NCBI GenBank assembly: GCA_024278215.1
Contig: JAJRTR010000165.1
Location: forward strand, 1-57,205
Reading direction: 5' to 3'
Length of the DNA: 57,205 nucleotides
Origin: a bacterium
GTDB taxonomy: Bacteria > UBP15 > UBA6099 > JAJRTR01
Shown: positions 1,313-18,348 of the stretch, piece by piece
Numbering within the stretch: position 1 is the first letter of the stretch
How the letters are laid out: each line of letters begins with the position of its first letter
The notes under the pieces: generated by a model
The model's database searches: none
Told to the model about the DNA's origin: nothing
The model's input: the letters and a program-made list of their open reading frames with translations, nothing else
Made by a program: the position numbers and the translations under genes

Positions 1313-1330
1313 TGTCGTATGTTGTTTCCA

Positions 1331-1410
1331 GACCGCTTTCCTCTCGCCGGCATTATCCGTATCAGGTTCGAGGGGTCTGTTCTCAGCCGTTTTCCGGCAC
1401 CCCCAGCGGA
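1331..1410 (-). ncRNA. TPP riboswitch (THI element)
   Basis: On the minus strand the conserved THI-box blocks occur in order: GGGGGTGCC, GGCTGAGA, ACCCCTCGAACCTGAT, GGATAATGCC, then a closing arm GCGAGAGGAAAGCGG. These are the hallmark elements of the thiamine-pyrophosphate aptamer. It precedes a terminator hairpin and the ThiD2-thiS-thiC genes, which it should repress when thiamine is plentiful. Confidence 0.95.
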
Positions 1411-1418
1411 TAATCAAC

Positions 1419-9228: not shown

Positions 9229-9302
9229 GCGTCCGTAGCTCAACTGGATAGAGCATCTGACTTCGGATCAGAGGGTTGCGGGTTCGAATCCTGCCGGGCG
9301 TA
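9229..9302 (+). tRNA. tRNA-Arg (anticodon TCG)
   Basis: 74 nt with acceptor arms GCGTCCG and CGGGCGT, D arm GCTC...GAGC, anticodon stem TCTGA/TCAGA around loop CTTCGGA (anticodon TCG), T arm GCGGGTTCGAATCCTGC, and discriminator A. CCA is not encoded. It reads Arg codon CGA. Confidence 0.95.
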
Positions 9303-17403: not shown

Positions 17404-17510
17404 AATTATGATCTCCCGGTTTTGGTTTTGACCAGCACCGGTTGCAATACTCACCATAAAACAATAATATATTGTCTGAACTTCAAATAAATGTTCTATT
17501 GGAGGCTCAA

Positions 17511-17996
17511 ATGAAGAAACTTACAACTATTGCACTTTTTTTAGTTTTTGCGATTTTCGTCGCCGGCTGCTCACAGAATGCCGATGATATGGATGAAAAC
17601 AGGATTACAACAAAGGTTATCGAATCGAACTCGCCCGAAGAGCTTATTGCGAATATGTGCAAAGCTTTTGTCGCAAAGGATGTGAACGGCGTGATCGCTC
17701 TCACACATCCCGAAACCCGAAGAGGCGTGCGCGGCGGGAGAATGATAAATTCGACGGTGGAAGACCTTAAAGCCAGGTTCGAGGCTTATGATATTCAGGA
17801 GTGCAAGGCCGGCGCGATAGAGACAGTCCCGGTCAAACCGGAACTGAAGAAAGAGTTCAAGGAAAAACACAACATCAATGTCTCACTGATTGCCAAAGCA
17901 AACTATGTATTGAAAACAGGCAGCAACCCCGATGCTTTCGTCGATGATTCCGTCGACATAGTCAAAGTCGGCGGCAAGTGGTATATTTTCCCGTAA
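17511..17996 (+). CDS. Small lipoprotein, NTF2/DUF4878-like
   Basis: 161 residues. Lipoprotein signal MKKLTTIALFLVFAIFVAGC with acylated Cys20. The mature part has SPEELIANMCKAFVAKDVNGVIAL near its start and ends VDIVKVGGKWYIFP. Both features are common in small NTF2-like or DUF4878-type secreted proteins. The ATG at 17511 has GGAGG 5 bp upstream. It follows the STAND gene on the same strand by 107 bp. Function unknown. Confidence 0.65.
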   Translation: MKKLTTIALFLVFAIFVAGCSQNADDMDENRITTKVIESNSPEELIANMCKAFVAKDVNGVIALTHPETRRGVRGGRMINSTVEDLKARFEAYDIQECKAGAIETVPVKPELKKEFKEKHNINVSLIAKANYVLKTGSNPDAFVDDSVDIVKVGGKWYIFP

Positions 17997-18089
17997 AAAA
18001 CACATTTTAGTCCGACAGTTGACGTTAGCGACATGAGGTTGTCGCGAAAAGAACAGAGCATAACTGTTTGCTGGAAGGTGTGTTTCTTC

Positions 18090-18178
18090 ATTTGGAGTGC
18101 GGTGATCCGTCACCGCTTTGTTTTGCCGGGAATAGATTTCCGGCCCTGAAAGCGACAATGAATTGTCGCACTCCAAAT
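18090..18178 (+). repeat. Cloverleaf-like palindromic element (89 nt)
   Basis: Closing stem ATTTGGAGTG / CACTCCAAAT (10 bp, 18090-18099 with 18169-18178) encloses three hairpins. These are CGGTGA-TCCG-TCACCG (18100-18115), CCGGGAA-TAGA-TTTCCGG (18126-18143) and CGACAA-TGAA-TTGTCG (18153-18168). Only one copy is in this window. It fills most of a 352-bp gap between the lipoprotein and FecR genes; no coding potential was seen there. Confidence 0.8.
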
Positions 18179-18348
18179 TCAACATTTCCCCATCATAATC
18201 AAGAGTTTTGTGAATGAGGGCGCAGTTCATATCGCAATCGATCAAGGCGCAAATCCGCAACGTTCAAATCGAATAGTTTTTGACGTGTCCTTTTAACCCT
18301 TAGCCGTAAATATCGTCAGAACTATCAAATCAGGTAAAGAGGTGTAAT

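Follow-up and report, generated by a model that had tools for sequence, protein, structure and literature searches.

The window analysed here, a stretch of 57,205 nucleotides from a bacterium of the UBP15 lineage, holds an 89-nt palindromic element (18090-18178, forward strand) made up of three arms and an outer stem, and the question that it raises is whether such a structure represents a functional RNA, a piece of mobile DNA or a product of chance. The element starts 94 nt past the stop codon of the open reading frame at 17472-17996, whose 174-aa product matches no Pfam family with confidence. Its own end is 171 nt ahead of the start codon (ATG, 18349) of a gene encoding a FecR-domain protein. 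Among open reading frames of at least 100 aa, the element overlaps only an antisense frame of 125 aa.

The first-pass annotation described a cloverleaf of three hairpins closed by a 10-bp stem. The cloverleaf is confirmed, with arms that are either perfect or interrupted by one G-T pair, while the closing stem proves to be 11 bp long, since ATTTGGAGTGC (18090-18100) pairs perfectly with GCACTCCAAAT (18168-18178). Arm 1 (GCGGTGA-TCCG-TCACCGC, 18099-18116) and arm 3 (GCGACAA-TGAA-TTGTCGC) are perfect 7-bp hairpins, and the middle arm (GCCGGGAA-TAGA-TTTCCGGC, 18125-18144), which carries the single G-T pair, has as its lid the central palindrome GCCGGGAATAGATTTCCGGC, delimited by sequence and fold at the same positions. 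The outer stem, arm 1, a GCTTT/AAAGC stem beneath the middle palindrome and arm 3 meet in a four-way junction that has no unpaired bases. Folding of the 89 nt is stable both as RNA (z -5.8) and as DNA (z -6.3), with none of 200 shuffles as stable in either case. In a search that was devised after the element had been seen, this was the single place in the 57-kb window at which an 8-bp arm has hairpins just inside both its ends, a pattern absent from 20 first-order Markov simulations of the window. The repeated stretch as a whole is longer (18061-18197, forward strand): 137 bp are shared at 90% with one other copy, on contig C78, and its outer arms are also able to pair. The C78 copy is followed directly downstream by a short repeat (L002:1640-1693), which is found again at a dozen or more sites of the genome.

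A BLAST search of the genome itself (4.55 Mb in 207 contigs) with a 101-nt stretch returned 43 rows, 24 of them at E<2e-5. From these 24 places we aligned the 12 full-length copies (L018 was dropped for an insertion, the rest being truncated or weak) and built a covariance model, which identified 21 places in the same genome at E 0.01 or better, including the 12 used to build it, and which matched in all seven genomes examined of the candidate phylum. Across the 12 copies, 93.6% of 360 cells are paired and changes on both sides are seen in 8 of the 30 pairs; none of 500 shuffles reached as high a covariation score, and slid controls were at most 47.9% paired. Several other copies (L002, L010 and L012) fold into one long hairpin instead of a cloverleaf, so that the repeat sequence has two good folds. 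The first-pass annotation had advised counting the element with a covariance model and looking for compensatory changes, and had regarded the lack of both further copies and such changes as the mark of a chance structure. Both are present, which rules out a chance palindrome. Since the element is also carried by seven genomes of the phylum and by many named records, and in view of the shuffles above, we consider the probability that it is a chance palindrome or an assembly artefact to be negligible.

The copies are dispersed. The 13 near-complete ones that we checked in the window's genome lie beside different genes, and 12 of the 13 overlap no open reading frame of 100 aa or more. Copies were found in both orientations, and of the 11 near-complete copies that are informative, 8 are flanked by two genes that point the same way. 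Two truncated copies (L022 and L025, on contigs C39 and C151) break at the same point in the central palindrome, after GGGAATTAAC, as if this palindrome were a hot spot of rearrangement.

Comparison of the two ends of the element revealed that they are one and the same 26-nt unit with its heads facing outwards, of the form GGAGTGCG-hairpin-CGCTTT and the pattern GGAGTGCG-NNN-ATTNAT-NNN-CGCTTT. Unit 1, GGAGTGCGGTGATCCGTCACCGCTTT (18094-18119, forward strand), has two mismatches to this pattern and contains the hairpin at 18099-18116, whereas unit 2, GGAGTGCGACAATTCATTGTCGCTTT (18149-18174, reverse strand), has none. By fold and covariation, the reported cloverleaf therefore reads as a core in which two head-out inverted units surround a third palindrome. 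Units with at most two mismatches number 4 to 35 per genome in the seven phylum genomes (reversed control pattern, 0), and a scan of 84,980 species genomes with the exact pattern found at least 116 stretches. Among the matches listed, which we treat as a taxonomic sample, Planctomycetota and Verrucomicrobiota predominate (Geminisphaera, Ereboglobus, Opitutaceae, Puniceicoccales, Spartobacteria), accompanied by Lentisphaerae, Chlamydiae, Omnitrophota, Armatimonadetes and the UBP15 lineage. The GGAGTGCGGTGA palindromes of PVC genomes that the first-pass annotation mentioned are thus real. At 119 loci among the matches listed, including three viral stretches, 63 of 81 neighbouring unit pairs are inverted head-out. 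The viral-contig stretches (L261, L262 and L263) include one that holds an inverted pair.

The foot of the unit is GGAG, with GGAC or GGAT in some lineages, and not the GTAG or GTGG (GTRG) by which REPs have been described. Its stem pairs are strongly conserved as pairs: in 151 units, 439 of 453 are Watson-Crick, and the exceptions comprise 5 G-T and 9 A-C pairs under a scan pattern that gave Watson-Crick pairs no advantage over A-C and G-T. Where the pattern left the inner stem free and did not demand complementarity, 34 of 57 distinct units (among the matches listed, outside the phylum only) are fully complementary at the three pairs, against 0.9 expected.

These data bear on whether the element acts as RNA or as DNA, which the first-pass annotation had left undecided. 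One could suppose that it is a conserved RNA element kept for an RNA function, either as a leader of the FecR gene or as a transcript-end structure. Such a role would be consistent with the strong RNA fold, with arm 1 being followed by the T-rich tail TTTGTTTT to give a sequence that scores terminator-like, and with the preponderance of copies between genes of one direction. The stem, however, lacks the tolerance of G-T wobble expected of RNA, so that folding as DNA, as a recombination substrate, is better supported; and the units flank a clade of single-strand DNA transposases, as described below. Moreover, copies occur in both orientations and beside different genes, and no Rfam family matches the element at gathering level, nor any around it even at E 1, for which reasons the dedicated 5' leader of the FecR gene that had been considered finds no support. 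The same search disposes of a tRNA-like or known RNA gene, leaving of the "tRNA-sized cloverleaf" only its shape. We therefore regard an RNA function as very improbable, although the terminator-like arm makes an incidental RNA effect on the FecR gene or on the upstream transcript end possible. Rfam does identify a TPP riboswitch (1321-1414, reverse strand) and a tRNA gene (9229-9302, forward strand) elsewhere in the window.

Inverted pairs of small hairpins of this kind have a precedent in REPINs, doublets of REP sequences that form hairpins (Bertels and Rainey 2011, PMC3116915). That paper proposes a hairpin and a less stable "clover" fold (the latter in the legend of its Figure S11) as alternative states, with the clover as the state that would be recognised by a RAYT transposase, and the cloverleaf of the first-pass annotation is this clover fold. 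As in the REPINs described there, the present element combines two inverted REP units, a variable spacer, a length of about 90 nt, an intergenic location, compensatory changes, two folds and a tie to RAYTs. It differs from that description in having a GGAG rather than a GTAG foot, a third palindrome filling the spacer, a core that in several lineages is nested in terminal-inverted-repeat elements, and a host genome in which a cognate RAYT was not found.

The tie to RAYTs emerged from a sister genome, G004. Using a profile of RAYTs from the phylum, we identified on its contig C2 (9720-10265) a RAYT located between unit pairs, which a search with PF01797 alone misses. A second RAYT, in the Planctomycetaceae record L161, has next to it 15 units arranged as a tandem array of pairs, and both proteins share an NHYH motif. 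In L161 (864-1722), seven REPINs in tandem directly adjoin the RAYT gene, and the two ends of each REPIN differ in stem sequence. A profile of the G004 and L161 proteins, when run against 386 genomes, matched 24 at E 1e-12 or better. Hairpin units of the type GGAN-TGCG were found at the flanks of all eight RAYTs of the best-scoring clade (G004, L161 and six found by protein alone) and at none of 20 other RAYTs, with none for the reversed control; the generalised flank pattern was fixed after one variant had been seen, and for the six found by protein alone (6/6 against 0/20) the Fisher test gives 4e-6. Across the genomes of the clade, the inner sequence of the unit differs while the foot and the base are kept.

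The eight RAYTs form a single branch (support 98/93) in a tree of 37 rows, and the His-Tyr-His of the NHYH motif, together with the candidate catalytic Tyr of an LNYVH motif, is invariant in all eight. Two of four members tested exceed the cut-off of 80 for NF047646, the NCBIfam model for REP-associated tyrosine transposases, at 92 bits, and the other two fall below it at 72 and 77 bits; the sole convincing structural relative is the TnpAREP structure 4er8 (4e-7). Genome-wide, exact GGAG units are present in 6 of 7 genomes with the clade as against 20 of 379 without. The exception among the former, G334, has GGAT at its RAYT.

Given the dispersed copies, the compensated stems, the head-out pairing, the exclusive flanking of one RAYT clade, and the conserved HUH His and candidate Tyr of that clade, we conclude that the cloverleaf is very probably an orphaned REPIN, a non-autonomous piece of mobile DNA in which two inverted REP-like units surround a spacer palindrome, and that its copies were probably once spread by a single-strand transposase, a RAYT.

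It is as an orphan that the element appears in the window's own genome, in which no clade RAYT was found: the best match to the profile scores 45 bits, compared with 381 for G004, in an assembly that is 95% complete and divided into 207 contigs. The clade profile likewise found none in five other genomes of the phylum, so that, among these incomplete assemblies, only G004 of the seven has a cognate RAYT, and yet phylum genomes without one still hold 4 to 35 units each. At this level of completeness, the RAYT has likely been lost from the window's genome. As candidate partners we considered the six PF01797 proteins of this genome, and for one of them, encoded on contig C6, a copy of the repeat lies 6 bp from its end. 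This protein was rejected, because its HUH motif reads DSLH and because it falls outside the unit-flanked clade in the tree; the neighbouring copy may just have happened to insert at that spot. At L009:1646-1823 and at many other loci of this genome lies a dispersed repeat some 180 bp long (GTTCGTAGCGAGGTCGAGCG...), which also covers the first part of the C6 RAYT-like frame.

Some of the cores have had a second carrier. In three sister genomes (G004, G005 and G006), the REPIN is enclosed by larger elements, some 204-258 bp long, whose ends are inverted (TCCTGA...TCAGGA); perfect 6-bp target duplications flank 6 of the 7 distinct elements of this type (control, 0/42). A second transposition route has thus carried the core, and part of its spread in the sister genomes was as the passenger of another mobile element. 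Among the repeats of the window's genome are short elements with CAATACCGTTTACTTAAG ends and 10-bp duplications: of 26 listed end pairs, some of which share an end and are therefore partly non-independent, 13 match at 8 or more of 10 positions (control, 1.7%). The gene for an IS4-family transposase (222 bits, cut-off 115) lies between ends of the same type. A CCAATACYGYTTA-type end was found near 8 of the 21 REPIN copies of this genome; three copies have both ends, and a recognisable duplication is seen in only one of these (8/10, as against 3/10 and 1/10 in the other two).

It is therefore worth weighing whether the core might be no more than the structured interior of DDE-type MITEs, spread in trans by the IS4-family transposase in this genome and by another in the sisters, with the RAYTs incidental. 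The 6-bp duplications around REPIN-bearing elements, the copies near CCAATACYGYTTA-type ends and the transposase gene between such ends all favour this reading, and some copies do resemble IS4-family MITEs in having CAATACYGYTTA-type ends like those around the transposase gene, ends that in short elements come with 10-bp duplications. Against it, one and the same core is surrounded by at least three kinds of outer sequence (IS4-like ends, the window/C78 type and the 6-bp type), no such ends are in view for many copies or for most units of other phyla, and of the three copies here that have both ends, two show no target duplication. The copy in the window departs from IS4-family MITEs in its outer arms, which are of the type shared over 137 bp with the C78 copy, and in having no recognised duplication; the window contig contains no CAATACYGYTTA-type terminal inverted repeat site. 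Nor would this reading account for units at 8/8 clade RAYTs and 0/20 others. We consider it improbable as an account of the core, although copies within terminal-inverted-repeat elements, in this genome and its sisters, suggest that recent ones may owe their spread to another transposase. No empty sites were found in sister genomes among the loci compared.

For the preferred reading, an orphaned REPIN, a course of events can be proposed. In single-stranded DNA, for example on the lagging strand, each unit would form a hairpin that carries a GGAG foot. The NHYH-clade enzyme would bind hairpin and foot and cut near the base, at C|T if it works as characterised RAYTs do, and would then paste the doublet elsewhere, mostly into intergenic DNA. 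With the putative loss of the RAYT, the copies in the window's genome would have been orphaned, and the doublets carried on in part inside DDE-type elements. The copy in the window would on this account be a fossil, whose present effect, if any, might be that of an incidental hairpin in the 3' end of the upstream gene.

TnpAREP cleaves at a CT that adjoins the hairpin, and positions A3-G4 of its GTAG foot have been proposed to choose this CT (PMC8266576). Since A3-G4 are retained in GGAG and a CT stands at the 3' base of the unit, the same CT cut is predicted here. According to that study, E. coli TnpAREP accepts no altered form of GTAG, from which it follows that the NHYH clade must recognise its GGAN foot differently; a different guide tetranucleotide is thereby predicted for the whole clade.

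REPs, REPINs and RAYTs are already known, and the nearest precedents for the present family are the GTAG REPs of PVC genomes, including Planctomycetes and Verrucomicrobia (Opitutus terrae), and the REP dimers that in some cases lie inside longer palindromes (Di Nocera et al. 2013, PMC3733652). Like the GTAG- and CGTC-tagged REPs of that study, the units are small tagged hairpins that often form inverted dimers. The repeats of that study are sorted by these two tags, neither of which our units carry, and on a comparison with its text our units are unlikely to be the same as one of its PVC families (GTGG in O. terrae). The RAYT clade, in turn, resembles TnpAREP/RAYT subclass 2.8 (Filee et al. 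2018, PMC6006769) in its NHYH motif, in genes flanked by REP hairpins and in having relatives in other phyla, and is set apart by description, since that subclass has canonical GT[AG]G REPs and is cyanobacterial in the published sample, whereas the clade here has GGAN feet. In open-licence PubMed Central text, preprints and figures excluded, the exact unit motifs occur in no paper, and we found neither this REPIN family nor its association with the NHYH clade described there, nor any DDE MITE with a REPIN inside it. Within the literature searched, the sequence family with its GGAG foot, the link to the NHYH clade and REPINs as DDE cargo are therefore new.

A domesticated RAYT that is inherited vertically is regarded as the basis on which REPINs depend, and the persistence of such pairs has been posed as an open question (PMC8049555). 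The present family allows lineages that have the RAYT to be compared with natural counterparts that do not, and it includes orphan REPINs that lie inside another kind of mobile element. We tentatively suggest, as a generalisation to which we would give somewhat less than even weight, that a GGAN-footed REP system with its own RAYT clade exists in PVC and neighbouring phyla, and that REPINs deprived of their RAYT have become cargo of DDE miniature transposons at least twice independently, which would keep orphans moving. The family would also account for many palindromes that have gone unannotated in planctomycete and verrucomicrobial genomes.

Other small repeats accompany the family in this genome. 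Two kinds of miniature element, 91-92 and 125-126 bp long, are abundant and have CAATACCGTTTA ends and TTA-rich 10-bp duplications (examples at L039:1502-1592 and L046:1388-1512; a possible IS4-family source lies in L067). Just upstream of the element, at 18028-18045 of the window, is a second small palindrome, GCGACATGAGGTTGTCGC, and similar hairpins of the form GCGACAAC..GTTGTCGC lie beside other repeats of the genome (L014, L032, L041 and L052), perhaps representing a second REP family.
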